DNA of 64,000 nt from the NCBI GenBank assembly GCA_946560065.1, contig CAMNUE010000011.1, positions 1 through 64,000 on the forward strand, written 5' to 3'. Under the pieces are notes generated by a model. The model did not search any database. It was not told where the DNA came from and was given only the letters and a program-made list of their open reading frames with translations. Both the position numbers and the translations under genes were made by a program. This DNA comes from an uncultured bacterium. Its GTDB lineage: Bacteria; Bacillota_I; Bacilli_A; RF39; UBA660. Positions 31,230-46,688 of this stretch are shown piece by piece. How positions within the stretch are numbered: position 1 is the stretch's first letter; every line of letters begins with the position of its first letter.

Positions 31230-31263
31230 AAAAACTGCTGTAGAATAAACTACAACAGTTTTT
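31230..31263 (-). terminator. Terminator of the LCP gene (- strand)
   Basis: Fourteen-base stem (31230-31243 with 31250-31263, one G-U), loop of six, with T6 after it on the - strand. It overlaps the LCP stop codon. Confidence 0.8.
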
Positions 31264-33214
31264 ACTCATCAGGTTCCTTACTTTCACCTTTATCTTCTCC
31301 AGTAGAACTACCATCACCACCAGGAGGATTAGGCGAAGGACTAGGAGTAGGCGAAGGAGTAGGATTTTTATCACTATCCTTATCTTGATTTGAATCATCA
31401 CTATCATCAGTCTTATCGCTTTGGTTAGGATTATTCTTATCATCAACTTCATCTTTTATAACTTTATCATTATTTTCATTTAATACTTCATTCTGAATGT
31501 TATTGTAATTACTATTTTGAACATTACTAGGTCTATAGGTTGGAACAGATGAATATGTTTTACCTATATCTTTAGATGGAACAGAATGAGTATCTTTAAC
31601 ATTCGCAAGTTCTGAAGCATCTTGTTCAATATCAGGCCTACCACCATCTAAAACAGTTTTTATCTGAACTTTAGCATCTTCAATTGTTTTATTATCAGGA
31701 ATCATAACATATAAAGGTTGACTACCACCAGAATAAGTAGGTCGATTAGCATCACTTCCATCTAATGAAATTGAACTTATTTCAAATTTACCATTATTAT
31801 TTAATACATATTTAGCAATTTCTTGAATACTTTCATTTGAAATGTTTGTCAAGAACGTTCCCTCTAAAGATTTCAAAATTTTATTATACTTTAACAATAC
31901 TGATGGAGTAGAAGCTTTATTAATTACCGCTCTTAAGAATCTAGATTGGTTAATTCCTCTTTGTCTATCACCTTCAGCAAAATTCTTTCTTGCACGAACA
32001 AATTGCAATGCCATTTTTCCATCCGTTATATGATTGTAACCTTTACTAAAAGTATAACTATTTCCAATAGTTTGATCATAAACAGAAGTAGTAAAATCAT
32101 AATCACTATAAACATCAAGTGGTAACAAATATTCTACAGCCTTCATAAATGTTGTAAAGTTAAACTTAACATAATAATCAACTGAAACATCTAGCAAATC
32201 ACCTAAGCTACTCATTGCTTCTTCACTACCATATAAAGAAATATGCGTTAACTTATCATAAGCACCTTTACTAGATATATTAATATAATAATCTCTAGGT
32301 ATTGATAAAAGTAATATCTGTTTTGACTTCAAATTAACAATCATCAATAGATTAACATCACTTCTAGAAGTCTCACTAACAGAATCGGCATATGAGTCTT
32401 GACCGCTTACATATATTGCAAAACTTCCTTTTTCAAGGTCAATCTTCTTAGACTTCTTTGAATTATCAACTTTAATTTTAAAATTATAAATAGTTTTACT
32501 TTTAACATCAAAATCTTCAATGTTATCTAACATATTTTTTTCATCTTCCGAAACAAGATGATTACTACTATTATTATCTTGAATATCCGCAATACTTTCT
32601 TCTTCAGAAACATCATCAATTTCTAAATAAGAATCCATAATCATTAATGCATCAATCTCTTTAACTAATAACGCATTCTTTAATTCATTAATTGAAGAAT
32701 ATCCGATATATTCAACATCTACTTTTTTATTTAACTCTTTCTGAGCAGATTCATTATATTTATCATCTACATAATAACCAATTATTTTATCATCAATATC
32801 ATTAATTTTCTTATAATTAGAACTTTTTAATGCTAAAACCGAATAATTAATATATGAATTATTTTTAAACATATTATTCATCGATGAATAAACTTGTAAC
32901 AAAACTATACTAATAATTAAATAAGCAATTGACAACAGAACCGATAAAATACTAAGTGCAATCTTAGTTTTCTTACCTTTCCTTTTATACAAGAAAAACA
33001 AAACTAAGAAATCCACTACGCAAATAGAAAGTATTATAGGTATTAGAAATTTAACACCTAAAACTCCGATCTTTATAACTGTAAATATCAATAATATACT
33101 AAACAGTATTTGAATAAAACTTACATAAAATAATGGCTTTTTTAATAATGCTTTTAAATCTATCTTAAACTTTTTTTTATTTATATTATCATTTTTATCA
33201 TTTTTTTTCTTCAA
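31262..33214 (-). CDS. LytR-CpsA-Psr (LCP) family protein, large
   Basis: A 650-residue LCP enzyme, which transfers undecaprenyl-linked glycopolymers (teichoic acid, capsule) to peptidoglycan outside the cell. The core holds NLLMIVNLKSKQILLLSIPR (Asp/Arg phosphate site), DVYSDYDFTTS and KMALQFVRARKNFAEGDRQR. Unusual features are three or four N-terminal membrane helices (about residues 25-130) and a separate globular domain before the core. The C-terminal tail is acidic, Pro/Ser-rich and low complexity (PTPSPTPSPSPNPPGG). TTG at 33214, eight bases after AAGGAG, is the best start; the ATG at 33232 lacks a site. Confidence 0.85.
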   Translation of the reverse strand: MKKKNDKNDNINKKKFKIDLKALLKKPLFYVSFIQILFSILLIFTVIKIGVLGVKFLIPIILSICVVDFLVLFFLYKRKGKKTKIALSILSVLLSIAYLIISIVLLQVYSSMNNMFKNNSYINYSVLALKSSNYKKINDIDDKIIGYYVDDKYNESAQKELNKKVDVEYIGYSSINELKNALLVKEIDALMIMDSYLEIDDVSEEESIADIQDNNSSNHLVSEDEKNMLDNIEDFDVKSKTIYNFKIKVDNSKKSKKIDLEKGSFAIYVSGQDSYADSVSETSRSDVNLLMIVNLKSKQILLLSIPRDYYINISSKGAYDKLTHISLYGSEEAMSSLGDLLDVSVDYYVKFNFTTFMKAVEYLLPLDVYSDYDFTTSVYDQTIGNSYTFSKGYNHITDGKMALQFVRARKNFAEGDRQRGINQSRFLRAVINKASTPSVLLKYNKILKSLEGTFLTNISNESIQEIAKYVLNNNGKFEISSISLDGSDANRPTYSGGSQPLYVMIPDNKTIEDAKVQIKTVLDGGRPDIEQDASELANVKDTHSVPSKDIGKTYSSVPTYRPSNVQNSNYNNIQNEVLNENNDKVIKDEVDDKNNPNQSDKTDDSDDSNQDKDSDKNPTPSPTPSPSPNPPGGDGSSTGEDKGESKEPDE

Positions 33215-33353
33215 AATTTCAACTCCTTGCATTTAATAATTATATAATAATTTTCTATCATAAAAAAGTATTTTTTTAAATTTATCATTTTCTTTTACAT
33301 TAAAATGTTGTATCATAGGAATAGTTAATTGACATATAAAAAGAGGTGTAATT

Positions 33354-35006
33354 ATGACAGAAAACGAAAGAATTGAATTATCAAACTTATTATTTCCTAA
33401 TCTGGAACATGACAGAGATTATTATGAAAAATTATATCCAAAGAGAGATTTACCTGAAAATGCTATGGTTACTAGATATGGTCCAAGTCCAACAGGAAGT
33501 GTCCATTTAGGTAATTTATTCAGTGCTTTTTGTGATATGATTTATGCAAGACAAAGTAAAGGAGTTTTCTATTTAAGAATTGAAGATACTGATCAGAAAA
33601 GAATGATTGATGGTGGAATAGAAAATATTACTGGAGTTTTACATGGATTTAATATTTTGCCAAATGAAGGTTATAACTTTGGTGGAGAGTATGGCTCTTA
33701 TAGACAAAGTGAAAGAACTGAAATTTATCAAACTTATGTAAAAGATTTGATTATAAAAGGCTTAGCTTACCCATGCTTTATGACTGAAGAAGAACAAAAT
33801 ACTATTAAAGAGGAACAAGCTATTAATAAAGTTAAGATAGGAATTTATGGTCATTACGCAGTAGATAGAGATTTATCACTAGAAGAAGTTAAAGAAAAAC
33901 TAAATAATAATGAAGAATATGTAATAAGATTAAAAAGCCCAGGTAATGCGAAAAATACAATAGAATTTGTTGATTGTATTAAAGGCAAAATTAAATTTCC
34001 AGAACATGATGTTGACACAGTTTTGCTAAAAAAAGATGGAACACCAACATATCATTTAGCACATGCGATTGATGATCACTTAATGCATACAACACACGTT
34101 ATTCGTGGGGATGAATGGGTATCAAGCTTACCACTTCATTACCAACTATTCCAAATCTTGGGATTTGAGCCTGTCAAATATGCTCATATTGCTCCAATAA
34201 CAATAAAAGATAGAGAAACAGGAACAATCAGAAAAATTAGTAAAAGAAAAGATCAGTGGGCGGGAGTTAAGTTCTACGAAGAGGGTGGAATTCCAATAGA
34301 TGCACTACATCTTTACTTAGCAACAATTGCCAACACTAATTTCGAAGAATGGTATTTACAAAATCAAGATAAAAGTATTGAAGATTTTGAATTTTCTTTT
34401 GAAAAGATGGCAATCGGTGGGACAAGTTTTGACGAAGCTAAGTTTAATAATATCTGTAAGACATATTTTTCACGTAAAAGTGGAGAAGAAGTATTTAATG
34501 AAACTTTAGAATTCGCTAAAAAATACGATGCTGAATATGCTAAAATTTTAGATTCTAATAAAGAAGATATGATTAAATTCTTAAGTATCGAAAAAGATGG
34601 ACCAAGACCTCGTAAAGATATTTCTAAGTATAGTGATGTAAAAGAAGAATTCTCATATGCAATAGACGAAATCTTTGAAAAAGAAAACTATTCTAAACTA
34701 GATACAGATAAAATATATGATACTGAATTGGTTATTAATTACATTAATAATTGTCTAGATATAAATGTTACAAATGAAGAGTGGTTTAATAAAGTAAAAG
34801 AATTCGCAGTTGAAAATGGTTATGCTGCTAGCCCAAAGGACTACAAGAAAGACCCAGATTCATATAAGGGACATGTTGGAGACATTTGTGAAGCAATCAG
34901 AGTCATGATTACAGGTAGAAGACAATCTCCAGACTTATTTAGTATAATGAAAATCTTAGGAAAAAATCGAATTTTAAAAAGAGTTGAAAAATATATAAAT
35001 AGATAA
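33354..35006 (+). CDS. gltX: Glutamyl-tRNA synthetase
   Basis: A 550-residue class I aminoacyl-tRNA synthetase that charges tRNA-Glu. The HIGH-type site is GPSPTGSVHLGNLFSAF (about residues 43-59), YLRIEDTDQKR follows, KISKRKDQWAG (near 295) is the KMSKS motif, and DGTPTYHLAHAIDDHLM is typical of GluRS. The anticodon-binding half runs to the end. Divergent from the LCP gene. A small shadow frame inside (34327-34509) is not a gene. Possible charging of tRNA-Gln in organisms without GlnRS cannot be judged here. AGAGGTG precedes the ATG. Confidence 0.95.
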   Translation: MTENERIELSNLLFPNLEHDRDYYEKLYPKRDLPENAMVTRYGPSPTGSVHLGNLFSAFCDMIYARQSKGVFYLRIEDTDQKRMIDGGIENITGVLHGFNILPNEGYNFGGEYGSYRQSERTEIYQTYVKDLIIKGLAYPCFMTEEEQNTIKEEQAINKVKIGIYGHYAVDRDLSLEEVKEKLNNNEEYVIRLKSPGNAKNTIEFVDCIKGKIKFPEHDVDTVLLKKDGTPTYHLAHAIDDHLMHTTHVIRGDEWVSSLPLHYQLFQILGFEPVKYAHIAPITIKDRETGTIRKISKRKDQWAGVKFYEEGGIPIDALHLYLATIANTNFEEWYLQNQDKSIEDFEFSFEKMAIGGTSFDEAKFNNICKTYFSRKSGEEVFNETLEFAKKYDAEYAKILDSNKEDMIKFLSIEKDGPRPRKDISKYSDVKEEFSYAIDEIFEKENYSKLDTDKIYDTELVINYINNCLDINVTNEEWFNKVKEFAVENGYAASPKDYKKDPDSYKGHVGDICEAIRVMITGRRQSPDLFSIMKILGKNRILKRVEKYINR

Positions 35007-35020
35007 AAAAACAAAAGGAA

Positions 35021-35061
35021 AAATAAGAAAAGTTGCCTAGTTGACAGTTTCTTATTTTTTT
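35021..35061 (+). terminator. Intrinsic terminator
   Basis: AAATAAGAAA (35021-35030) pairs with TTTCTTATTT (35048-35057), followed by more T. Confidence 0.75.
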
Positions 35062-35087
35062 TGATTGATTTATTAACGATTTAGTGG

Positions 35088-35093
35088 TATAAT
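35088..35093 (+). promoter_or_regulatory. -10 of the capsule-kinase operon promoter
   Basis: TGG-TATAAT, an extended -10, 32 bases before the Wzz-like gene. The -35 (TGATTT, 16 bases upstream) is weak. Confidence 0.5.
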
Positions 35094-35125
35094 TGAAGCG
35101 TTAAAAAGGAGATGTGGTTTAAAAA

Positions 35126-35800
35126 ATGGAAGAAATTAATTTGAGAGAATTATTTGACTACTTCAAAAGTAAGATAACTTGGGTAATAATCGCCGTTATT
35201 CTAGTTATTGGTATTGGTAACATTGCCACAATAATTATGCGTGTTCCAATGTACAGAAGTAGTACTACAATTGTGCTAGTGAGTGAGAATAATACTGGAG
35301 ATAGTACCTACAATAGTAGTGAATTACAATTAAACAAGAACTTAGTAGGAACTTATTCAGAAATTATTAAGTCAAGAAAAGTCCTAAATGAGGTAATAAG
35401 TAACCTTGGACTTAGTTATTCAACTGTAGACTTATCAGAAAATATTAGCGTAGCAGCAGTTGAAAACACAGAAATTATTAGAATAACAGTAGCAGATGCT
35501 GATAATAAACAAGCAGCAAAAATTGCCAATGAGATAGCTAGTGTATTCATGACAGAAATTCAAAAATTCTATAAACTTAATAACGTATCTGTAATAGATA
35601 AAGCAGAAAATAGTTTAAATCCATATAATGTAAACTATATTAAAGATAACCTAATTTATCTAATTATTGGTTTAGCATTATCAAGCGGAGTAATATTTAT
35701 TATGTTCTATTTTGATACAACAATCAAAACTAGTGAAGAAATTGAAAATAAATTAGGATTAACAGTATTAGGTGTTGTTCCTAAGGTGGAAAGGAATTAA
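35126..35800 (+). CDS. Capsule chain-length regulator / tyrosine-kinase modulator (Wzz/CpsC-like)
   Basis: A 224-residue membrane protein of the Wzz/YveK class: two membrane helices (about residues 18-38 and 172-195) around an extracytoplasmic loop, with the Pro-rich EKAENSLNPYNVNYIKDNL before the second helix. It sets polymer length and activates the tyrosine kinase encoded next. RDNV-type kinase-contact residues are probably in the C-terminal tail. Its end overlaps the kinase's ribosome site region. Confidence 0.85.
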   Translation: MEEINLRELFDYFKSKITWVIIAVILVIGIGNIATIIMRVPMYRSSTTIVLVSENNTGDSTYNSSELQLNKNLVGTYSEIIKSRKVLNEVISNLGLSYSTVDLSENISVAAVENTEIIRITVADADNKQAAKIANEIASVFMTEIQKFYKLNNVSVIDKAENSLNPYNVNYIKDNLIYLIIGLALSSGVIFIMFYFDTTIKTSEEIENKLGLTVLGVVPKVERN

Positions 35801-35804
35801 TGTT

Positions 35805-36515
35805 ATGAAAAATAAAGATTTAGTTATAAATAGAAATCCGAAGTCATTATTTTCTGAATCTATAAGAAGTATTCGTACTAACTTAGCATTTTCTTCATTG
35901 GATAAAGAGGTAAAACTTATTATTAATACCTCACCAGAAGCCAGTGACGGAAAAAGCTTTGTAACAGCAAACTTAGCTGTAGCTTATGCTCAAGAAGGTA
36001 AAAAAGTCCTACTAATTGATGCAGACTTGCGTCGTGGAAGACAACATGAAATATTTGAAATTATGAATGTTACTAGTGGAGGATATTCAAATTTAATGTT
36101 AAACTTTAAAGATAACATCCCACTAGAAAAATATATATTCCCAACTTTTGACAAAAACATAGATTTATTACCTACAGGGCCTATGCCTCCTAATCCAGTA
36201 GAACTTTTAGCTAGTGAGAATAATAAACGCTTAATTGAAAAATTAAAAAGAAGATATGATTTAATTATTATGGACTGTGCTCCAGTAATAGGTTTAAGTG
36301 ATTCATTAATATTAGCAACAATGTCGGATATAAATATGCTTACAGTTTCCGTTAAGAAAACAAAAATGGAAAACTTAGAAAGGGCAAAGAAACAATTTGA
36401 ACAAGCAAATGCTAAAATAAATGGTGTTATCTTAAATAAAGCTCCAATGCAAGGAAATGGTTATTACAGTTATTATTACAACAATGAATATTATGGAGAT
36501 CAAACAGAAAAATAA
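35805..36515 (+). CDS. Bacterial tyrosine kinase (CpsD/YveL-like)
   Basis: A 236-residue BY-kinase. FSESIRSIRTNLAFS leads to the Walker A SPEASDGKSF (residues 43-52), Walker A-prime VLLIDADLRRGRQHE near 73-87, PTGPMPPNPVELL and Walker B LIIMDCAPVIG. The C-terminus ends in a Tyr cluster (GYYSYYYNNEYYG, seven Tyr), the autophosphorylation site. It works with the Wzz-like protein and the PHP phosphatase to control polymer export. The ATG at 35805 follows AAAGGAATT. The 3' end overlaps the phosphatase gene (TAATG). Confidence 0.9.
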   Translation: MKNKDLVINRNPKSLFSESIRSIRTNLAFSSLDKEVKLIINTSPEASDGKSFVTANLAVAYAQEGKKVLLIDADLRRGRQHEIFEIMNVTSGGYSNLMLNFKDNIPLEKYIFPTFDKNIDLLPTGPMPPNPVELLASENNKRLIEKLKRRYDLIIMDCAPVIGLSDSLILATMSDINMLTVSVKKTKMENLERAKKQFEQANAKINGVILNKAPMQGNGYYSYYYNNEYYGDQTEK

Positions 36516-37243
36516 TGAAAGATTTACACTCCCATATATTATATGGAATAGATGATGGTTCTCAGACAATTGAAGAATCAATTGCCATTTTAAAAGAATC
36601 AAAAAAACAGGGGATTGATGAAATAATTCTTACCCCACATTACATTGAAAATAGTAAATATAATTGTAATAATAAGAATAAGGAAGAATTATTTAATAAA
36701 TTAAAAGAAAGAGTTGAAGAAGAAAATATCGATATTAAAATTTATCTAGGAAATGAAGTATTTTTTACTGATAACTTTCTTAGTTTATTAAAACAAAAAG
36801 AAATAACGACATTAAATAATAGTAAATATATTTTATTTGAGTTTCCAATGGGACCAATTTATAATAACACATCAGAAATCATTTCCATTTTAATTAGTAA
36901 AGGATATACACCAATACTTGCTCATCCAGAAAGATATCCAAGATTTCAAGAACATCCTGAATTAGCAGAAGAATATTTAAGAATGGGTGTTCACATGCAA
37001 GGCAACTTTACTAGTTTATTTGGAAAATATGGAAGAACTTCAGAAAAAACTCTAAAATATTTATTAAAGAAACACTATATCAGCTTCTTAGGAAGTGATG
37101 TTCATCATGAAGTTAATTATTCAGCAAAAAAATTAGAAAAGAAACTTCTAAGAATTACTAAAGATAAAGAGTATGTAGCTGACTTAATGGGAAATAATTT
37201 TGATAAAGTTATTAATAAAGAAGAAATTGGAATACTAAGATAA
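36515..37243 (+). CDS. PHP-type tyrosine-phosphatase (CpsB/YwqE-like)
   Basis: A 242-residue manganese-dependent phosphotyrosine phosphatase of the PHP family that dephosphorylates the BY-kinase. Metal-binding motifs: DLHSHILYGIDDGS at the start, LTPHYI, LGNEVFF, PILAHPERYP and FLGSDVHHE. It starts inside the kinase stop codon, so the two are translated in step. A strong terminator follows, ending the first capsule operon. Confidence 0.9.
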   Translation: MKDLHSHILYGIDDGSQTIEESIAILKESKKQGIDEIILTPHYIENSKYNCNNKNKEELFNKLKERVEEENIDIKIYLGNEVFFTDNFLSLLKQKEITTLNNSKYILFEFPMGPIYNNTSEIISILISKGYTPILAHPERYPRFQEHPELAEEYLRMGVHMQGNFTSLFGKYGRTSEKTLKYLLKKHYISFLGSDVHHEVNYSAKKLEKKLLRITKDKEYVADLMGNNFDKVINKEEIGILR

Positions 37244-37251
37244 GCACAGAG

Positions 37252-37280
37252 ACACAAAACAACTAGTTTTGTGTTTTTTG
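37252..37280 (+). terminator. Intrinsic terminator
   Basis: ACACAAAAC (37252-37260) pairs with GTTTTGTGT (37266-37274), loop AACTA, then T5. Confidence 0.85.
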
Positions 37281-37290
37281 TTTTTATATC

Positions 37291-37319
37291 TTTAAATGAG
37301 ATAGAATTTGTACTATAAT
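37291..37319 (+). promoter_or_regulatory. Promoter of the radical-SAM operon
   Basis: TTTAAA at 37291-37296, 17-base spacer, TATAAT at 37314-37319. Confidence 0.65.
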
Positions 37320-37345
37320 ATTAATAGTAAAAAGGAGTATCGTTT

Positions 37346-39001
37346 ATGGGGAAAAATGTAAAAAGAGCAATTGCTGGACTTATACTAGTCGCTGCACTTT
37401 ATATTTGTGAAATTAGAGGAAGAAAAGTAGAAGAGTTGCATTTGATCATGCTTTTTGAATGTTTCTGTACCATTCATATGTCATTATTCGCATTACTTCC
37501 AATTTCTAAATTACTCGCAAAAGAAGGGGAACATAAAAAACTATTTTGGACTCTATTTTATATAAGAGTAATAATTCTTTTGTTAGGTAACAGTGTTAAT
37601 GCCTGGGTCACATTCATCGTCGATTTTATTTTAATTTTTGTTGGTGCATTTGCAGTTGTACCAGTACTCGCACTGATAAAAAAGAAGGATCCATTTACAG
37701 GAATAGCAAAAGAAAATATTGAATCAAGTCAATCAACAAGTGCCGCAGCAGTTACAGCCTCAAGTCAGCCTTTAGTAAATAAGATTTATAAATGTAGTAA
37801 ATGCGAAAAAGAAGTGGCTCTAGGTAATAAGTATTGTCCAAACTGTGGTACTGCCCTAACTGAGAATGACTATGTAGTAAAAGATTCAACTATTACCACT
37901 ACTGACGCCAGAGAAGGAACTCCATTCAACAAAGCAGAATATGATAATTATCTTTTTGGCGACATAAAGAAAGCAGCAGGATGTATCATCAAAGAAAATA
38001 TTGCAAAAAATCCTGAAAATGTTCATGCAACACTACCAATAATTGAAAAAAAGAAAAATACTATAACAATCGTTTTTTCAATCGCAATCACAATATTATT
38101 GATAATTTACTTTGCTTATCATATAAATTGGTTAATTATAGCTAGTTTTATAGGAATAATTATATATTTCCTTGTAATGAAAAATTACTCAATCGAAAAA
38201 CATCTTGTAAAAGAAGTAATAAGTAGACCATCAGAAAAAATCGACTATGTTATTAGTAGTACCTTATCTGGTAAAGTAGTTGATAATAGAAGAAATAAAC
38301 TACTAAGAACAGGAATTATCGTTCTTACAATTTCTCTTCAATTACTTTTATTTAATAAACCGCATCTAATTTACGAAAAAACAGATGGAGGTTATGCAGT
38401 TAGATATTATACAATTGGAATTTTAAAAAAAGATAGAGAGTTAAAAATTCCCAAAGAATACAATGGTGAACCAGTGGTAAGTATAAGAGGAAGTGTTTTC
38501 GCAAGAATTGGCTCTATAGAAAAAGTAACTCTTCCTAACACAATAAAAGAAATAAGAGGAGAAGCATTTATAGGATGCTATAACTTAGAATCAATAAATA
38601 TTCCAGATGGAGTTACAGAAATAAAAGGAAGTACTTTTGAAGGATGTTCAAGTTTAAAAAGCATAGATATTCCTAAAGGAGTAACAAGAATAGGTGGTTC
38701 AGCATTTAGAGAATGTACATCATTAGAAAAGGTAACAATTCCTAAAACTGTCATAGAAATTGGAAGTTCGGCATTTAGAGGAACTGCTATAAATAACGTT
38801 TGTGTCTCAATAAATGCCTCCATCAATGAAAGAGCCTTTAAAGATACAAACGCAAACATTGCATACCATGAATATGGTTGTGTTAATACAAATGGAAGTG
38901 GATATGGATATGGGTACGGTAATGAATATGAAAGCAATTATGGATTCGAGAATGAATACAATAACAACGAATACGGATATGATTACGACTATGAAAGATA
39001 A
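37346..39001 (+). CDS. Multi-pass membrane protein with zinc ribbon, BspA-type LRRs and Gly/Tyr/Asn tail
   Basis: A 551-residue mosaic. About four membrane helices lie in residues 5-110. A zinc ribbon follows (CSKCEKEVALGNKYCPNCG, near 150-168). Two or three more helices lie at about 235-335. BspA/LRR_5 repeats (about 370-500) repeat the pattern VTLPNTIKEI-GEAFIGC. The last 40 residues are low complexity: GSGYGYGYGNEYESNYG onward, rich in Tyr, Gly, Asn and Glu. The LRR part is likely on the outside. The tail immediately precedes a radical-SAM gene whose start overlaps this stop, so the tail is a candidate substrate. Family of the whole protein unknown. Confidence 0.8.
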   Translation: MGKNVKRAIAGLILVAALYICEIRGRKVEELHLIMLFECFCTIHMSLFALLPISKLLAKEGEHKKLFWTLFYIRVIILLLGNSVNAWVTFIVDFILIFVGAFAVVPVLALIKKKDPFTGIAKENIESSQSTSAAAVTASSQPLVNKIYKCSKCEKEVALGNKYCPNCGTALTENDYVVKDSTITTTDAREGTPFNKAEYDNYLFGDIKKAAGCIIKENIAKNPENVHATLPIIEKKKNTITIVFSIAITILLIIYFAYHINWLIIASFIGIIIYFLVMKNYSIEKHLVKEVISRPSEKIDYVISSTLSGKVVDNRRNKLLRTGIIVLTISLQLLLFNKPHLIYEKTDGGYAVRYYTIGILKKDRELKIPKEYNGEPVVSIRGSVFARIGSIEKVTLPNTIKEIRGEAFIGCYNLESINIPDGVTEIKGSTFEGCSSLKSIDIPKGVTRIGGSAFRECTSLEKVTIPKTVIEIGSSAFRGTAINNVCVSINASINERAFKDTNANIAYHEYGCVNTNGSGYGYGYGNEYESNYGFENEYNNNEYGYDYDYER

Positions 39002-40736
39002 CTATAAATTTATCCATTTATTATATGTTCCAACAATGGCATGTAATATGCAATGTAAATATTGTTATTTAGAAGATAATACTAAAGATGAATGGAATAA
39101 ATATAAAGCCCTGGAAACTTTAGTATACGCAATAAATAAATTAAAAAAGAGTAATGTTATTCCATTTAATATTTCTCTTCATGGAGGAGAAGTAACCACA
39201 TTATCAACAAAAGATTTTCATGATTTAATAAAATATATCAGTAGTTACTACAAAGATAATAAGCAATTAATTGAAGAAAACGGTTTTAGAGTAGGAACAC
39301 CCCATATAAAAACAAATCTATATAATCTTGAAAAACATCTTGATACCATTAAAGAATATAATGTCTCAATAAGTGGTAGTCTCGATTTGCCACTTAGTAT
39401 CCACGATAAATATCGTCTGACTAAAAATAATCAAAAAACTTTAGATAGAATTTTAGAAAATATAAAATTATTAGAAGATATTCCAAATAAAAAGAAAGTC
39501 TCAACTACTATATTTAAAGAACATTTTGATTTGGATAAAATAGTCGAAGATATCAAATATTTAGATAAAAATACTTGTCTAGATATGAATGATTTTAACT
39601 TTATGATTGGCTTTGATTATAACTCGAATGGACTCCTTCATCATATTACTGAAGAAGAACAAGTAGAGCTATTTAAAAGAATGCATGAAGAGTTCGATGG
39701 TACAAATTTAGATAGTGGAGTAAATGGAGCTTGGTTCAACGAATTTGGACCAGAATACTGCACCAACTGTGATAACTGCGGAGAAAAATTCTTTCTTTTA
39801 GAGAAGAATGGTGATATTTACTCATGTGTTCGCGGTCAAAAGAATAAAGACTTCTATTATGGAAACATCTATCAAGATAAAGTAGAAACTATCTTAAATA
39901 ACGCTAAAAATAAAATCTTTATTGCTCACAATCGTCAACCATTTAATCAAGAATGTGCAGAATGTAGATATCTCTATTTATGTAAAACTGGTTGTCCTTT
40001 TGTAAAAAATGCATATAAAAGTAACAAATCATATACTTGTCTTCTTCAACAAGAACTTTATAAAAATAGAAACTATCAAGAAGATGAGTATAATGATGAA
40101 AGTGTCTATAACTACATTAGTAAAATGCATCCAGATAGAATGAAAGAATATTATCCAGTAAGACCAAATAATGAATACAAATCTTTAGAAGAATTAATTA
40201 ATGAAGATCAAAAATTAAAATATATATATGATTCCAATTCATTTATTTTAGAAGTAGATGGAAAAGAATACAATTTAGAATCACAAATACTAAAAAAGAC
40301 CAGACAAATTATCTATTTAACAGAAAAATCTAAAATAAAAATATATCTAAAAAATAGTCTTTTAAATGAAGTTTGCGATTATCCAGATAACAATTCTTTA
40401 TACATTATGCTTTTAACAGGAGATTTAATAAAATATGGTGATGAGCAAAGAACAAAACAAGCTCATATAATGACACATCAAGTCTATAAAGGAGTATTAG
40501 AAAAGAATAATAGTTCCAAAGAAGGATTTTATGAATATGACTTAACAAGTGTTTTAAAAGAATACTATAGTTATATTTCTAAAGATAAACCTAATAACTT
40601 ATTCTTTACTACTAATGCTTTAAGAGATTATCATTATACAAAACAAAAAAATAATGCTTATTATCATATTGATGCAATCAATTTGCCATTTCAAAATATT
40701 GAATTTTATTATTTAGGAGGACTAAACAATGATTAA
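38991..40736 (+). CDS. Radical-SAM/SPASM enzyme, candidate peptide maturase
   Basis: A 581-residue enzyme. The cluster motif is C18-NMQ-C22-KY-C25 (ACNMQCKYCYLE); ISLHGGEVTTL replaces GGEP. Auxiliary clusters are indicated by CTNCDNCG, GDIYSC, CAECRYLYLCKTGC and a later C, the SPASM pattern of peptide and protein modifiers. The last 200 residues are an unrecognised C-terminal domain, possibly for substrate recognition. The gene overlaps both neighbours (11 bases upstream, 8 downstream), so it is tightly tied to two proteins with low-complexity tails. The ATG at 38991 lacks a strong site; coupling is likely, and ATG 38979 is an alternative start. Target and reaction unknown. Confidence 0.85.
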   Translation: MKDNYKFIHLLYVPTMACNMQCKYCYLEDNTKDEWNKYKALETLVYAINKLKKSNVIPFNISLHGGEVTTLSTKDFHDLIKYISSYYKDNKQLIEENGFRVGTPHIKTNLYNLEKHLDTIKEYNVSISGSLDLPLSIHDKYRLTKNNQKTLDRILENIKLLEDIPNKKKVSTTIFKEHFDLDKIVEDIKYLDKNTCLDMNDFNFMIGFDYNSNGLLHHITEEEQVELFKRMHEEFDGTNLDSGVNGAWFNEFGPEYCTNCDNCGEKFFLLEKNGDIYSCVRGQKNKDFYYGNIYQDKVETILNNAKNKIFIAHNRQPFNQECAECRYLYLCKTGCPFVKNAYKSNKSYTCLLQQELYKNRNYQEDEYNDESVYNYISKMHPDRMKEYYPVRPNNEYKSLEELINEDQKLKYIYDSNSFILEVDGKEYNLESQILKKTRQIIYLTEKSKIKIYLKNSLLNEVCDYPDNNSLYIMLLTGDLIKYGDEQRTKQAHIMTHQVYKGVLEKNNSSKEGFYEYDLTSVLKEYYSYISKDKPNNLFFTTNALRDYHYTKQKNNAYYHIDAINLPFQNIEFYYLGGLNND

Positions 40737-41094
40737 GAAAAAACCAGAGACCTATGAAGAATTAGTTTTAGTTAGTAATGTTTTAAAATTAAATAACTTT
40801 TATGATTTATCCCAAGAATTTATTGATGAAGCCTATGATTATTTAGTAGCCAATCCTGAAGGAAGAATAGATGCAACACAAACACAAATTGTTTTTAAAA
40901 ATAGCACCACAGGAAAAATTGATAAAATTTTTACTGTTGCCTTAAAATTTGTTAATTCAATTGATGGGATATCTTTAACTAAATCAAATATTGAGATAAT
41001 ACCACATTATGATCCAACCTCAAGTGGAGGAGGATATGGTGGTTCATCTTCTAATAACAATAACAACAATAATAACAATAACAACAATCATTAG
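40729..41094 (+). CDS. Small protein with GGGYGG-Ser-Asn12-His tail, candidate modification substrate
   Basis: A 121-residue protein. Residues 1-90 form an ordinary-looking domain (YEELVLVSNVLKLNNFYDLS, IVFKNSTTGKIDKIFTVALK). The end is SSGGGYGGSSS followed by twelve Asn and a terminal His. This resembles a leader-plus-core arrangement of ribosomally made, modified peptides and echoes the GYGYGYG tail of the gene before the radical-SAM gene. The Asn run is encoded by mixed AAC/AAT codons, so it is under protein-level selection or expansion of a longer unit, not a pure triplet repeat. Overlaps the radical-SAM stop. Confidence 0.75.
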   Translation: MIKKKPETYEELVLVSNVLKLNNFYDLSQEFIDEAYDYLVANPEGRIDATQTQIVFKNSTTGKIDKIFTVALKFVNSIDGISLTKSNIEIIPHYDPTSSGGGYGGSSSNNNNNNNNNNNNH

Positions 41095-41102
41095 GAGGAA
41101 AA

Positions 41103-42119
41103 ATGGTAACAGAAAAAGCTCAAGAAGAACGTTTGAAAAAATATGATATAAATATAAAAACAAAATATAAAGTAAATGATAATGTCTTAGAAAGAAATAC
41201 CGATAACTCTAAAAACGATAATATAATAAATGGAATAAGATTAGAGAAAGCTTATTACTGTCATGGTCAACTCCTAAAAAAAGAAAATATTTTCGACTCA
41301 AGAATACTTTATACCTATGAATCAACAAATGATGAGTTTATTTGTAAAAACTGTGGTAATAAAGGAACATTAGAAGAATTTGATGCTGGATGTCCTTATT
41401 GTCATTCTAATTATAATATTGATTTCGTAAACAAAGAATTAGGAAACAAACACTATTATGATCTTATTATGAGCGATAAAAGTTATCTAAAAAAAACATT
41501 CATAATCACACTGATTTTTTCATTTATAATAACAATATTTTATGTATTACCGAATAGCAGAACCTTCTATTTCTTTGATATTTTAAAGATACTTGGAGGA
41601 ACAGTTGTAATAAGTTTAATTCTTTTTCTAATATTTTATTATTTAGATGCAGTAATTCTTCTACCAAGTATCAAAAATAAAAAAGAAATTCAAAATAATA
41701 AACAAAAAGAATTTTGGAATCAAATGGAAAATGAAGGAATTGAAAAGAATAAATTCTATAATAATTTTAATTATAATCTAAGAAAATATTATTATAGTTC
41801 TAAAAATCCAAATATCATTGACTATGATATCATTGATTATAATGATTTTAAATCTAGTTATGAGAATAACAATCTCTATGTAACAGTTAATGTTGATGTT
41901 AGAATAGTAAGATTTGATAATAACAAAATAATTTCTAAAATAGAAAACAAATCATATTATCTTAAGAAAAATGATATTACTAAGGAACTAAAAGGAGAAA
42001 TTAACTACATTAAATGTCCAAGTTGTGGAGCAAGTGTAGATGCAACTAAAACCAAGTGTTCTTATTGTGGAACAGAATATAATTACCTTCAAGAATGGTA
42101 TTTAGAAAGAGAAATTTAA
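41103..42119 (+). CDS. Membrane protein with two zinc-ribbon motifs
   Basis: A 338-residue protein. CKNCGNKGTLEEFDAGCPYC (residues about 81-100) and CPSCGASVDATKTKCSYCG at the C-terminus form two C4 zinc ribbons on either side of two membrane helices (about 131-150 and 160-182). A Tim44-like or adaptor role is possible but the central domain is not recognised. AGGAGG, 5 bases before the ATG, places it as the last gene of the radical-SAM operon, ahead of a terminator. Confidence 0.75.
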   Translation: MVTEKAQEERLKKYDINIKTKYKVNDNVLERNTDNSKNDNIINGIRLEKAYYCHGQLLKKENIFDSRILYTYESTNDEFICKNCGNKGTLEEFDAGCPYCHSNYNIDFVNKELGNKHYYDLIMSDKSYLKKTFIITLIFSFIITIFYVLPNSRTFYFFDILKILGGTVVISLILFLIFYYLDAVILLPSIKNKKEIQNNKQKEFWNQMENEGIEKNKFYNNFNYNLRKYYYSSKNPNIIDYDIIDYNDFKSSYENNNLYVTVNVDVRIVRFDNNKIISKIENKSYYLKKNDITKELKGEINYIKCPSCGASVDATKTKCSYCGTEYNYLQEWYLEREI

Positions 42120-42130
42120 TTCTCTTTTTT
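42106..42130 (+). terminator. Intrinsic terminator
   Basis: AAAGAGAA (42106-42113) with TTCTCTTT (42120-42127), loop of six, then TTT. Confidence 0.7.
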
Positions 42131-42234
42131 GCTGGAAATTTGTAAATAAGTAATAAAATTATAAAAAATGTGTAAATTATGTGAATATTATGCTATAATT
42201 AAGAGGATTTCCGTAAAAAAATAAGGATTACCTA

Positions 42235-42262
42235 TTGCAAATATAAAAAAATGTGATATAAT
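42235..42262 (+). promoter_or_regulatory. Promoter of the priming glycosyltransferase gene
   Basis: TTGCAA at 42235-42240, 16-base spacer, extended TGA-TATAAT at 42257-42262. A second extended -10 (TATGC-TATAAT) lies 70 bases upstream. Confidence 0.65.
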
Positions 42263-42315
42263 ATATACCACGTTATAAAAGGGGTTTATAAGTAACGGCG
42301 AAAGGGGTATTGGAG

Positions 42316-42993
42316 ATGAAAACTAAGAGGGAATTGGTTGAAAAAAAGAAAAGTGCAACAGAAAATAAGCAATTATTATATATTTTTATCAAAAGAACAT
42401 TTGATATCATTTGTGCACTAGTTGGATGTGTATTTTTACTTCCAATAATTGTTCTAGTTAAAATTTTATATATACTTACTGGTGATTTTAATAGTATTTT
42501 CTTTACTCAAAAAAGAATTGGTATTGATGGAGAAGAATTCAATTTTTTTAAATTCAGAACAATGGTACCTAATGCAGACGAAATATTATTTGATACTTTA
42601 AGGCAGGACAAGATATTAGCAGAGGAATATCAAAAAAATAAAAAGTTAAAGAACGATCCACGTATTACAAAAGCAGGTAAAATATTAAGAAGAACTTCTC
42701 TAGATGAATTACCACAATTAATAAATGTATTAATTGGTGACATGTCTATGATTGGAAATAGACCTTATATTCCTAGAGAAAAGAAAGATATGGGTAAATA
42801 CTTTGATGATATAGTAAAGACTAAACCAGGAATAACAGGGTATTGGCAAGTAAGTGGACGCGAAAACGCTTCGTTTAAGAAACGTTTAGAATTAGAAAGT
42901 TATTATTCTAATCATAGAAGCTTATGGCTTGATATAAAGATATTTTTTAAAACTTTTAAAGCTGTTCTAGGAGGACATGGAGCGGCTGAGTAA
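42316..42993 (+). CDS. Priming sugar-phosphate transferase (undecaprenyl-phosphate)
   Basis: A 225-residue polyprenyl phosphate sugar-1-phosphate transferase, which puts the first sugar of the repeat unit on undecaprenyl phosphate at the membrane. One N-terminal membrane helix (about 23-48) and the family motifs FFKFRTMVPNADE, DELPQLINVLIGDMSMIGNR and KPGITGYWQVSGR. The Tyr, Asp and Arg needed for catalysis are in place. I chose the ATG at 42316, preceded by GAAAGGGG. Own promoters and a terminator: it is a separate transcript. Confidence 0.9.
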   Translation: MKTKRELVEKKKSATENKQLLYIFIKRTFDIICALVGCVFLLPIIVLVKILYILTGDFNSIFFTQKRIGIDGEEFNFFKFRTMVPNADEILFDTLRQDKILAEEYQKNKKLKNDPRITKAGKILRRTSLDELPQLINVLIGDMSMIGNRPYIPREKKDMGKYFDDIVKTKPGITGYWQVSGRENASFKKRLELESYYSNHRSLWLDIKIFFKTFKAVLGGHGAAE

Positions 42994-43002
42994 TAAACAA
43001 CA

Positions 43003-43052
43003 CAAAAGTAACATCTGAGTATTCAATATTACGACGTTACCGATGTGTTTTT
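43003..43052 (+). terminator. Likely terminator hairpin
   Basis: ACATC near 43009 pairs with GATGT near 43043, followed by T7. The interior holds smaller palindromes. Confidence 0.5.
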
Positions 43053-43100
43053 TTATTAAAAGAAAACAAGAAAATATTATGCTTTATTAAGAAAATTTGT

Positions 43101-43106
43101 TATAAT
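43101..43106 (+). promoter_or_regulatory. -10 of the glycosyltransferase operon
   Basis: TGT-TATAAT, extended -10, with TTATGC about 18 bases upstream. Eighty bases of leader precede the first gene. Confidence 0.5.
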
Positions 43107-43188
43107 ATTGAGTAGAGTAAGTATAGAAGTATGAACATATATAAAATTAATATCGTATGATTTTTCAATTTTAGAAGGAGTAGTAATT

Positions 43189-44304
43189 ATGAAAAAAGAA
43201 AAACCGATACGTATAGCTCATATAATCGGTAAATGGGTTGGCGGTGGAGTCGAAGCTGTTGTTATGAATTATTATCGCAATATTAATCACGATAAAATAC
43301 AATTTGATTTTATTTGTGATTCTGATTCTACAAATATTCCATATGAAGAAATAGAAAAGCTTGGTGGCAAAATAATTTTAGTTCCGCCATATCAACATGT
43401 TTTCGCATATCAAAAGAAACTAAAAGAAGTCTTTTTAGAAGGAGAATATAAGATAGTACATTCTCACATTAATGCTTTATCTGTTTTTCCATTGCATGCA
43501 GCTAAAAAGGTTGGAATACCAGTAAGAATCGCTCATAGTCATTCGACAACAAACAAAAAAGAATGGAAGAAAAATCTATTGAAGCAAATTTTAAGACCAT
43601 TCTCAAAAGTTTACGCAACAGATTATATGTGTTGTTCAGAGTTAGCTGGAAGATGGTTATTTGGAGATAAAACATATGACCAAGGTAAAGTTTACTTATT
43701 GAATAACGCAATAGATCTAGAAAAATTTGCATACAACGAAAAAATAAGAAAATCAAAAAGAAAAGAACTAAAAATAGATGATGAAACACTAGTAATTGGT
43801 CATATTGGAAGATTTGTAGCACAAAAAAATCACACATTTCTTATAGATGTTTTTAATGAATTACACAAAAAAGAAAAAAATTCAGCACTAATTTTAGCTG
43901 GACAAGGACCATTAATGGAGGAGATAAAAGATAAAGTTAATAAGTTAGGTTTATCTGATTCAGTAAAATTTCTAGGACAAAGAAATGATGCAAATGAATT
44001 ATACCAAGCATTTGATGTGTTCTTATTACCAAGTTTGTATGAAGGTTTAGGTATGGTTGCAGTAGAAGCACAATGTGCAGGTAATTACTGCATTTGCTCA
44101 ACTGAAGTACCATCAATTGTAAAGATGACAGAGAATATTGAATTTTTAAGTCTAGCAGACAATGCAGATAAATGGGTAGAAAGAATACTTGCTACTACGA
44201 ATAAAAAAAGAGAAAGCCACATAAAAGAAATTAAAGATTGTGGCTATGACATAAAAACAGAAGTTAAATTACTAGAGAAAAAGTATTATAGTTTTAAGAA
44301 GTAG
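43189..44304 (+). CDS. Glycosyltransferase family 4 (EpsF-like)
   Basis: A 371-residue GT-B enzyme transferring a sugar to the growing capsule unit. IAHIIGKWVGGGVEAVVMNYYR, KIVHSHINALS, IAHSHSTTNKKEWKK, CCSELAGRWLFG, NNAIDLEKFAYNE and LPSLYEGLGMVAVEAQ are the expected segments. The donor cannot be predicted. It is a close relative of the enzyme encoded at 46708, sharing the CSELAG and LPSLYEGL regions, and may be a duplicate. Confidence 0.9.
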   Translation: MKKEKPIRIAHIIGKWVGGGVEAVVMNYYRNINHDKIQFDFICDSDSTNIPYEEIEKLGGKIILVPPYQHVFAYQKKLKEVFLEGEYKIVHSHINALSVFPLHAAKKVGIPVRIAHSHSTTNKKEWKKNLLKQILRPFSKVYATDYMCCSELAGRWLFGDKTYDQGKVYLLNNAIDLEKFAYNEKIRKSKRKELKIDDETLVIGHIGRFVAQKNHTFLIDVFNELHKKEKNSALILAGQGPLMEEIKDKVNKLGLSDSVKFLGQRNDANELYQAFDVFLLPSLYEGLGMVAVEAQCAGNYCICSTEVPSIVKMTENIEFLSLADNADKWVERILATTNKKRESHIKEIKDCGYDIKTEVKLLEKKYYSFKK

Positions 44305-44312
44305 GTGAAATA

Positions 44313-46688
44313 ATGAAAAAGGTTGGAATAGTGTCTTGTTATTTTAAGAATAATTATGGAAGTTTACTCCAAGCTTATGCAAGTAAAAAAATCTTAGATA
44401 ATAATAATATTTTAAACGAAACTATTGCAATAGAAAAAAATAAAGATTTTTCTAAAGGAAAGAGAAAATACTATTTATCACAAATATTCAATTTTAATTT
44501 TATTAAATCCAAATTTGGAATGATAAAACTAAAAATAGATAAAAAATTAAATAAGAGCTTAGGAAAAAATATCAAGATAAGAGATAAAAAATATGAGGAA
44601 TTCAAGAAAGAGTTTAACTTATCAAGGTCATGTCTTGATTATAAGGGTTTAAAAGAATTAGCTGCAGAAAAGTATAGTGATGTAATAGTAGGGAGTGATC
44701 AGTTATGGTTACCTGTTAATGTGGTTGCCGACTACTATACATTAAATTGGGTTCCAGAAAATATAAATAAAATCTCATATGCAACCAGTTTTGGAGTATC
44801 AAGTATACCAAAAAAATACACAGAACAATACTCAAAGTTTTTAAAAAGAATAAATCATTTATCCGTAAGAGAAGAAAGTGGAGTTAAACTAGTAAAAGAA
44901 ATAACACAAATTGATGCACAACTAGTATGTGATCCAACTATTCTCCTAACAAAAGAAGAATGGGAGAGTATCTCAATAAAAGACAGGATTATAAAGGATA
45001 AATACATTTTTTGTTACTTTCTTGGATCAAATATTGAACATCGAAAATTTGCTGAAAGATTAAAGAAAGAAACAGGATGCAAAATTGTATCACTAAACCA
45101 TGCAGACGAATATGTAAAATATTCAGATTTATTTGCTGACTTCACGCCTTATGATATAGGTCCAAAAGAATGGATTAACTTAGTTAAAAATGCAGAATAC
45201 ATCTGTACAGATTCATTCCATGGCACAGTTTTTTCTATTCTTTTTAATAAAATATTTTTTGATTTCAGAAGACACAACAATAAAAATAAAAATTCAACTA
45301 ATAGCAGAATAGACTCCCTGTTAAACGTTGCTGGAATCAGTAAAGAAAGAATTCTATCAGGAAATGAAGATATTAAAGAAGTATTAAAATATGAAATAGA
45401 TTATCAAAAAGTAGATAAGAATATAAGCGTGTTTAGAGAACAATCGAAAAAGTGGCTTTTAGATTCAATAGAATGGCAAAAGGATGAAGAAAGTAAATAT
45501 ATAAAAATAACAGACAAAGAGATGTGTTCTGGATGTACGGCTTGCGCCAATATATGTCCCAAAGATGCTATTGAAATGGTAAGAGATGAGGAAGGGTTCT
45601 TATATCCTAAAGTCAACAAAGATAAATGCATTGATTGTGGACTTTGTAAAAAAACATGTCCTATGATAAATCATAAGGAACACCATGAATTTGAACAAAA
45701 AGCATATATCTTTCAAAATAAGGATGAACAGATAAGGTTAGAATCAACATCAGGAGGAGCATTCACTGCAATTGCAGAAGAAATCATAAATTCAAACGGA
45801 GTTGTATTTGGTGTAGCTTTTGACAAAGATTTTAAAGTTAAACACACATATGCTACAACAAAAAAAGAATTAGAAATATTTAGAAATAGTAAGTATGTAC
45901 AGAGTGATCCAAATGAAACATTTACTAAGGTTAAAGAATTTTTAACATCCGGAAAAAAAGTTTTATTTAGTGGTACATCTTGCCAAATAGCAGGGTTAAA
46001 ATCTTTTCTCAAAAAAGACTATGAAAATTTACTATTAGTTGATGTTGTATGTAGAGCAGTTCCTTCACCATTAATGTGGGAAAAGTATTTAGAAGTACAA
46101 AAAAAGAAATATCTGAATCCTAAAAAAATATTCTTTAGAGAAAAATATCATGGGTACAAATATTCTAATATGAGCATCTACGGACAAAATAAAGACTATC
46201 ATCGTGGAATAGATTCAGATCCATATTTAAGAGCCTTCTTTTCGAATATTTGTGATAGACCTTCTTGTTATACATGTAAATTCAAAACTCAGTATAGAGA
46301 AAGCGATTTAACAATCTGGGATTGTTTTAATATAGAAAATTTCAATTCTAAATTAGATGATGATAAAGGTACAACAAGAATATTATGTCATACAAAAAAA
46401 GGAATGGATATGGTTAAAAAAATTGCTGCAAAACATACCTGTGAAGAAATAAATGTAAAGCAAGCTTTATCAGACTTTAATGGGATTTTTTCTAAAGTAA
46501 ATTACAACTCCAGAAAAGCAGAATTCGTAAAAGATATGAATTCAATATCTTCAGAAGAATTATTCGAAAAATATTTTCCAGATACAGTAAAAGTAAAATT
46601 AGAAAGAACATTAAGATCATTTCTATTAAAGACAGGATTGTATAAAAAAATAATTAGTTTTGGTAAAAAAATAAGAAAAAGAACATAG
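44313..46688 (+). CDS. Polysaccharide pyruvyltransferase fused to an FrhB-type Fe-S flavoprotein domain
   Basis: A 791-residue fusion. Residues about 10-365 are a polysaccharide pyruvyl transferase (YGSLLQAYASKKIL, VGSDQLWLPVNVV, CTDSFHGTVFSILFN). A 4Fe-4S ferredoxin-like segment lies at about 402-455 (CSGCTACANICPKD and CIDCGLCKKTCP). The rest (about 470-740) is an F420-hydrogenase beta-like domain (SGGAFTAIAEEII, FSGTSCQIAGLKSFL, CDRPSCYTCKFKTQYRESDL). The combination occurs in capsule loci and suggests a redox-linked sugar-ketal modification. F420 use is unproven. Starts 8 bases after the GT4 gene. Confidence 0.85.
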   Translation: MKKVGIVSCYFKNNYGSLLQAYASKKILDNNNILNETIAIEKNKDFSKGKRKYYLSQIFNFNFIKSKFGMIKLKIDKKLNKSLGKNIKIRDKKYEEFKKEFNLSRSCLDYKGLKELAAEKYSDVIVGSDQLWLPVNVVADYYTLNWVPENINKISYATSFGVSSIPKKYTEQYSKFLKRINHLSVREESGVKLVKEITQIDAQLVCDPTILLTKEEWESISIKDRIIKDKYIFCYFLGSNIEHRKFAERLKKETGCKIVSLNHADEYVKYSDLFADFTPYDIGPKEWINLVKNAEYICTDSFHGTVFSILFNKIFFDFRRHNNKNKNSTNSRIDSLLNVAGISKERILSGNEDIKEVLKYEIDYQKVDKNISVFREQSKKWLLDSIEWQKDEESKYIKITDKEMCSGCTACANICPKDAIEMVRDEEGFLYPKVNKDKCIDCGLCKKTCPMINHKEHHEFEQKAYIFQNKDEQIRLESTSGGAFTAIAEEIINSNGVVFGVAFDKDFKVKHTYATTKKELEIFRNSKYVQSDPNETFTKVKEFLTSGKKVLFSGTSCQIAGLKSFLKKDYENLLLVDVVCRAVPSPLMWEKYLEVQKKKYLNPKKIFFREKYHGYKYSNMSIYGQNKDYHRGIDSDPYLRAFFSNICDRPSCYTCKFKTQYRESDLTIWDCFNIENFNSKLDDDKGTTRILCHTKKGMDMVKKIAAKHTCEEINVKQALSDFNGIFSKVNYNSRKAEFVKDMNSISSEELFEKYFPDTVKVKLERTLRSFLLKTGLYKKIISFGKKIRKRT

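Follow-up and report, generated by a model that had tools for sequence, protein, structure and literature searches.

Radical-SAM/SPASM enzymes are a main source of new peptide chemistry, and in cyclophanes the side-chain carbon of Asn is known to serve as a cross-linking position. In anSMEcpe, D277, directly after the third AuxI Cys, is the catalytic base. The anSMEs (TIGR03942; anSMEcpe, PDB 4k36-4k39), which oxidize Ser or Cys, were by score and fold the closest characterised relatives of the enzyme reported here. In RiPP pathways a coded precursor, with a conserved leader region and a distinct C-terminal core, lies beside the maturase, and SPASM maturases so placed include DynA, PapB, GrrM, XyeB, YhhB, HxsB and others in NCBIfam. 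In the TvgB/TvgA poly-cyclopropylglycine system one radical-SAM enzyme repeatedly modifies a repetitive core, the core there consisting of TVGG repeats on a different precursor, with Val chemistry; the main text contains neither 'NNN' nor 'asparagine' (PMC9062424). No described SPASM member with a homopolymeric Asn target, and no poly-Asn radical-SAM system, was found in the open literature, subscription journals falling mostly outside the search. Within the literature checked, the locus described here encodes a SPASM-enzyme/precursor system whose presumed target is unprecedented.

The window (the whole stretch of 64,000 nucleotides that was analysed) carried four genes on the + strand between 37346 and 42119, and all four open reading frames, annotated initially as overlapping or abutting, were confirmed. 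Gene 1 (37346..39001, +) encoded a membrane protein with a zinc ribbon (residues 149-171), a C-terminal BspA-type LRR domain (residues 379-501) and a variable Gly/Tyr/Asn tail. Gene 2 (38994..40736, +) encoded a radical-SAM/SPASM enzyme of 580 aa, and gene 3 (40729..41094, +) a 121-aa putative carrier (precursor) in which a folded N-terminal domain precedes a disordered tail. Gene 4 (41103..42119, +) encoded a membrane protein whose ends resemble zinc ribbons and in which hydropathy showed two hydrophobic segments. Genes 1 and 2 overlapped by 8 nt from ATG 38994, the enzyme stop (40736) overlapped the start of gene 3 (40729) by 8 nt, and gene 4 began 8 nt past the stop of gene 3. An enzyme start at 38814 (640-aa ORF) was rejected as a spurious 5' extension, homology beginning at residues 1-5 counted from ATG 38994. 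A promoter-like site (TTTAAA-17-TATAAT, 37291..37319, +) matched by consensus only, and a terminator-like hairpin (37248-37278) lay upstream of it. Such promoter-like sites were no more frequent across the region than in shuffled sequence, so the single promoter that had been proposed for the cassette is present as a candidate site and is plausible only. In this genome the cassette was flanked by capsule/exopolysaccharide genes, with Wzz, an AAA_31 kinase-like gene and CpsB upstream and a sugar transferase and a glycosyltransferase downstream.

Gene 2 matched Pfam Radical_SAM (PF04055, 1.1e-10) and SPASM (PF13186, 2.6e-5), both above the cut-off, and its assignment to this class, made at first from the sequence, held with the invariant Cys motifs and an anSME-like fold. 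The CX3CX2C motif of the AdoMet-binding [4Fe-4S] cluster (C17, C21 and C24; 39042..39065, +) was invariant. So were the eight SPASM Cys ligands for two auxiliary clusters (C256, C262, C278, C321, C324, C330, C334 and C349; 39759..40040, +), in members from gut bacteria and from phages alike (gut and phage enzymes below). Eleven Cys were thus invariant in both groups, 3 for AdoMet and 8 auxiliary, and no spare invariant Cys remained; one extra near-conserved Cys was Ser in some members. A weak viperin-like PADLOC match (E 3.9e-6) was accounted for by the common radical-SAM core, and a defence role was rejected.

An AF2 model of the enzyme (pLDDT 88.8) placed residues 5-362 in an anSME-like core (VIA-align Z 26.2, rmsd 3.6-3.8, 322-332 residues aligned) with the same 3+8 Cys layout. 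The enzyme differed from the anSMEs in its score against TIGR03942 (91.7 against a cut-off of 349.45 bits), in its Asn-tailed partner and in an extra C-terminal domain of about 210 residues. C278 was followed by V in gut enzymes or H in phage enzymes and then by invariant R and Q; the residue after the third AuxI Cys is D in anSMEcpe, and with the base position occupied by V or H the anSME chemistry cannot be transferred. The enzyme also scored far below every curated NCBIfam cut-off for the SPASM RiPP maturases, and no NCBIfam equivalog (June 2026) reached its cut-off for a gut or a phage enzyme. It did match, over nearly its full length including the C-terminal domain, phrog_1802, a phage 'radical SAM domain-containing protein' family, residues 12-571 aligning with positions 49-549 of 556 (E 6.4e-40). 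The Campylobacter phage enzyme described below matched the same profile almost end to end; this PHROG carries neither a function nor a substrate.

The C-terminal domain (about residues 363-575; 40080..40718, +) was present in gut and phage members and marks the enzyme family. It had been described at first as an unassigned domain of 200 residues; it spanned about 210 and had no strong match among PDB sequences (one weak match, 2kjg, E 0.0055). Structure matches of the full-length model were filled by the core domain, and among 392 genomes of the phylum the domain was found in no other protein. Many of its polar residues were invariant (YGDExRxK, TTxxxRxxHYxKxxxN, YH and LPF), within the motifs YGDExRxK..H and TTxxxRxxHYxKxxxN[AG]xYHxxxxxLPF. 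From these a carrier- or tail-binding role, or a part in the active site, may be inferred.

Gene 3 had no Pfam match. In the AF2 prediction of its product, two helices and five strands make up the folded part (pLDDT 92-97, about residues 11-90), and the tail is disordered (pLDDT 52-62); the fold had no PDB match and no Foldseek match below E 0.48, and no hydrophobic export segment was found in the protein. The tail, SSS-N12-H as initially annotated (41044..41091, +; Asn codons 41053-41088), is the presumed target and was the only near-invariant part of the family. The N-terminal domains of the precursors had diverged to 25-58% identity with that of the window while the Asn run stayed near-invariant. 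Gut tails consisted of a Ser/Gly-rich linker, mostly a Ser-Asn or Gly-Asn junction, a terminal run of 3-20 Asn residues (mostly 9-20) and one closing residue from the set R, N, H, G, S and A. Ser was found in nearly all of them, and many had no aromatic residue near the run. The GGGYGG segment, which had been taken as part of the tail, was dispensable, Ser/Thr/Gly followed by Asn being the sole universal feature. Elsewhere in the genome of the window, eight or more consecutive Asn codons occurred at one place only, and that place lay within an unrelated protein.

From 84,980 species genomes scanned, 80 enzyme loci were kept, with 50-75% identity over nearly the full length, in Bacilli, Clostridia, Bacteroidales, Eggerthellaceae and two UGA=Gly (SR1-like) genomes. 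Among gut bacteria the cassette covers at least four phyla, with Bacillota, Bacteroidota and Actinomycetota represented as well as UGA=Gly genomes; one of its carriers, Lachnospiraceae bacterium GAM79, has a complete genome. No further enzyme was detected at E 1e-30 in two genome samples, 395 from the class and 392 from the phylum, so its occurrence is sporadic. In the tree the two UGA=Gly loci nested inside the Bacilli and the Eggerthellaceae loci stood beside the Clostridia, which was read as horizontal transfer. These two loci (L051 and L053) contained 5 and 11 in-frame TGA codons, respectively, at the columns where Gly was commonest, several of them invariant. Code 25 gave intact neighboring genes, as in SR1/Gracilibacteria, and the two precursors could be read through only with TGA=Gly, ending in N16-N17 and R. 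As a genome-wide probe phrog_1802 matched many SPASM enzymes through the core alone, and it was kept out of all counts.

At the 80 loci, clustering of the neighbors recovered the LRR gene 71 times, the small gene 70 times and gene 4 45 times. The LRR gene and gene 4 are therefore both cassette members, gene 4 an optional one that was missing from about 20 loci. Frame-by-frame inspection revealed an Asn-tailed small protein behind the enzyme in 73 of 81 loci. Enzyme homologues lying apart from any tail protein were sought, as the initial annotation had proposed, and the pairing withstood the search: the Asn-tailed protein directly followed the enzyme in 75 of the 76 loci that could be tested, those left out (L013, L029, L058, L059 and L087) being on contigs that end before or within the tract. 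The lone exception, L037, showed a one-base frameshift relative to its twin contig L038 from the same MAG. Among 889 distinct C-termini in the fetched gut loci, 59 ended in five or more Asn, and all 59 adjoined this enzyme. Of 99 genomes around that of the window, 10 had the enzyme, and these same 10 were the ones with the Asn-tailed protein, a coincidence with a chance of 1 in 1.6e13 if the genomes are treated as independent, which they are not.

No relative turned up in viruses scanned with the gut profile A1. With tblastn, one enzyme homologue was found on a plasmid record and one on a phage record, both from Campylobacter; the Campylobacter homologue had 34.5% identity over 97% coverage and the same C-terminal domain. 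Some members of the Campylobacter Mu-like prophages (CMLP1/CJIE1-type) carry this phage branch of the enzyme near a tail-fibre gene, the enzyme sitting two genes behind the fibre. The enzyme-linked fibres had 11 distinct C-termini, all with Ser/Thr/Gly/Cys followed by 2-5 Asn (SGSTNNNNY and variants, SGATNNNNY, LGSSNNNNY, STGNNF, SMGNNF, SMGNNS, SSGNNF and YSCNNNNN). About four types of fibre body could be distinguished among them, and the sharing of one ending by differing bodies argues that the ending is selected with the enzyme. Other fibres matched them at 70-97% identity in the N-terminal part (about 170-240 residues) but came from contigs without the enzyme; these never ended in this way, their endings being VSFMELR, NLNRGHV, ATILNVR, LPNMLL and YFKELR. 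The pattern [STGC]-N2+-X was seen in 11 of the 247 distinct C-termini in the phage loci, all of them enzyme-linked fibres; since the phages are related and the fibre modules are inherited in blocks, the C-terminal modules together with the enzyme and its neighbor gene, these counts overstate independence. That neighbor, a 211-aa unannotated protein encoded between fibre and enzyme (phrog_10241), co-varied too and might, as a guess, be a fibre chaperone. A link between a radical-SAM enzyme and the modification of tail fibres was not found in the open literature.

The 121-aa protein is very probably the substrate carrier of the enzyme, its C-terminal Asn run being modified or recognised, and the Asn tail is with high likelihood the region acted on. 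That the C-terminal Asn run of this protein is modified after translation by a dedicated radical-SAM/SPASM enzyme was assigned a probability of about 0.78. In the mechanism proposed, the enzyme would recognise the carrier, in the gut cassette through the folded N-terminal domain of about 90 residues, and the disordered Ser/Gly linker and Asn run would be fed into the active site, where the Asn residues would be modified one after another. The likeliest single chemistry for each cycle would be hydrogen-atom abstraction at an Asn side-chain carbon, then an oxidation by two electrons that pass through the auxiliary clusters, which are fully ligated. The outcome would be dehydrogenation, oxidation or a bond between neighboring Asn residues, not epimerisation; oxidative Asn chemistry of this kind is put forward tentatively, the other outcomes together carrying somewhat more weight. 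The SPASM RiPP maturases differ in needing an aromatic or Cys partner, which the gut Asn tails do not offer. Cys was absent from the tail of the window and from the listed gut tails, so the core thioether donor of sactipeptides and ranthipeptides is missing, and the first-position aromatic residue of three-residue cyclophane peptides was not seen among the residues that end the runs.

The modified tail would remain attached and form a surface or binding tip of its carrier, not be freed as a small peptide, because no conserved peptidase or transporter gene lay nearby and because the phage carrier is the tail fibre itself; the chances that the product stays carrier-bound were judged even. The main competitor is a classical RiPP pathway, in which the 121-aa protein would comprise leader and core and the modified Asn-rich core would be cut off and exported as a bioactive peptide. 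The placing of a precursor beside a SPASM maturase fits this description, as do its leader-like domain, which is conserved, and its short C-terminus, which is invariant. No dedicated or conserved peptidase or exporter was found within 6 kb, however, the next neighbor family being common to only 7 of 81 loci, and the fibre that carries the phage tail is a structural protein. Such a pathway was considered unlikely, though a serious candidate; the enzymes required could be encoded elsewhere. Slightly under even odds were given to a more far-reaching reading: a new enzyme family that puts a hitherto undescribed modification along homopolymeric Asn at the extreme C-terminus of whole proteins, on the small gut carrier in several phyla and on the receptor-binding tips of phage tail fibres, and that would be a system for modifying protein tips, not a small-peptide pathway.

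Evidence against the tail Asn as target comes from the residues beside it: the enzyme could act on the Ser, Gly or Thr adjoining the run, with Asn serving for recognition or feeding only, in an anSME-like oxidation of Ser. The relationship to the anSMEs favors this, as does the Ser, Thr, Gly or Cys that precedes the run and the near-universal Ser of the tails. The residue before the run varies among S, T, G and C, however, leaving Asn as the sole feature kept, and runs of up to 20 residues suggest that Asn itself matters; modification of the neighboring residue was rated improbable.

Epimerisation of alternate Asn residues to D-Asn, giving a beta-helix-like rod of the polytheonamide type, was thought distinctly less probable again. 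Polytheonamides contain many D-Asn, and homopolymeric Asn would suit an iterative epimerase. In the known radical-SAM epimerases the hydrogen-atom donor is a free Cys, and no conserved free donor of the kind in PoyD, OspD and EpeE was present; the restriction of invariant Cys to the 3+8 cluster set speaks against a Cys-donor mechanism. EpeE also matched the structure clearly less well (Z 14, compared with 26 for the anSMEs), and the runs showed no preference for even or odd length (33 and 32).

The initial annotation had named the tails of both the LRR protein and the 121-aa protein as substrates, with the LRR and zinc-ribbon proteins as putative anchors or exporters of the product; in the version weighed here the cassette would cross-link both tails at the surface. 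For the 121-aa protein the proposal is supported by the tail in 75 of 76 loci and by the coupling in phages. The BspA-LRR membrane protein itself was recovered as described, gene 1 matching LRR_5 (6.9e-32) and Zn_Ribbon_1 (4.8e-6) and having about 6 hydrophobic segments, the zinc ribbon lying after the fourth of these and before the fifth, and the LRR domain at the end. Its end in the window (GYGYGYG...NNNEYGYDYDYER) speaks for the two-tail idea, and GY- or Y/N-rich ends were shared by 8 of 66 LRR homologues with a length of 330 aa or more. Most lacked such a tail and many stopped right after the LRR domain, so the Gly/Tyr/Asn tail was rejected as a family-wide second substrate and cross-linking of both tails appeared very unlikely. 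By the positive-inside rule the ribbon would lie inside and the LRR domain outside. Gene 4 closes the operon with its two hydrophobic segments as first described, but its zinc-ribbon character is less certain, Pfam giving weak zinc-ribbon matches only, the best just under the cut-off. From gene order, the LRR and zinc-ribbon membrane proteins of the gut cassette may hold, display or sense the tail.

A functionless, slippage-prone microsatellite, suggested by varying run lengths and by MAG contigs that end inside the tract, was refuted by the strict coupling to the enzyme, the absence of the tail from all other proteins in the fetched loci, its retention across phyla and a change of genetic code, and the irregular codon mixture of the runs (476 AAT and 328 AAC of 804, AAC being commoner than among the 3118 Asn codons of the enzyme genes at the same loci, 2463 AAT and 655 AAC), which shows that the run is kept at the protein level.

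No curated family and no open paper describing an Asn-tail modification system was found, and the coupling of enzyme and Asn tail suggests an unstudied chemical modification of protein tips. Since two unrelated carriers show this coupling, the substrate can be read off the sequence and put to a direct test. Radical modification of phage tail-fibre tips, if it occurs, would add a new layer to phage-host recognition. Profile A4, built on the C-terminal domain, reached one further and more distant phage contig (L196), in which a 34-aa ORF ending in TNNSNH lay upstream of the enzyme, separated from it by a single 200-aa gene; as a third Asn-tail context for the enzyme this is suggestive only.

The cassette genes are carried in two fetched gut loci (L051 and L053) by MAGs that read UGA as Gly, and the in-frame TGA codons of the enzyme and precursor fall at sites where Gly is the commonest or an invariant residue. 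Since the enzyme of both loci was placed within the Bacilli in the tree, their sequences suggest that the cassette genes were transferred and then adapted to the new code. In the window's genome, a capsule/exopolysaccharide locus (window 31262-46688) with genes for LytR-CpsA-Psr, Wzz, a kinase, CpsB, a sugar transferase and a glycosyltransferase is interrupted by the cassette.

Several MAG contigs (L015, L027, L029, L033, L038, L045, L060, L061, L065 and L087) end inside, or a few bases from, the C-terminal Asn tract of the precursor encoded directly behind the enzyme, as if assemblers break there; tails missing from draft genomes can be artefacts.

The phage homologues of the enzyme are directly adjoined on their upstream side by genes for uncharacterised proteins of about 200-211 aa, at L196:5926-6528 in the more distant phage contig and at L103:7351-7986 in Campylobacter. 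The latter protein (phrog_10241) was present in the Campylobacter phage loci only together with the enzyme.

Elsewhere in the window's own genome, a gene for a 271-aa membrane protein is followed directly by a SagD/YcaO-like gene scoring 180.8 bits against TIGR03604, below the cut-off of 219 (L155:874-2942, corresponding to about 2817-4885 of contig C18). The membrane protein carries an internal N8 run, zinc-ribbon-like Cys pairs and an N-terminal poly-Cys stretch, TPTCGCCCCCCCCCIVSTFATAS, which resembles thiazole-forming precursor cores, and the pair is possibly a second homopolymer-core system in this genome.
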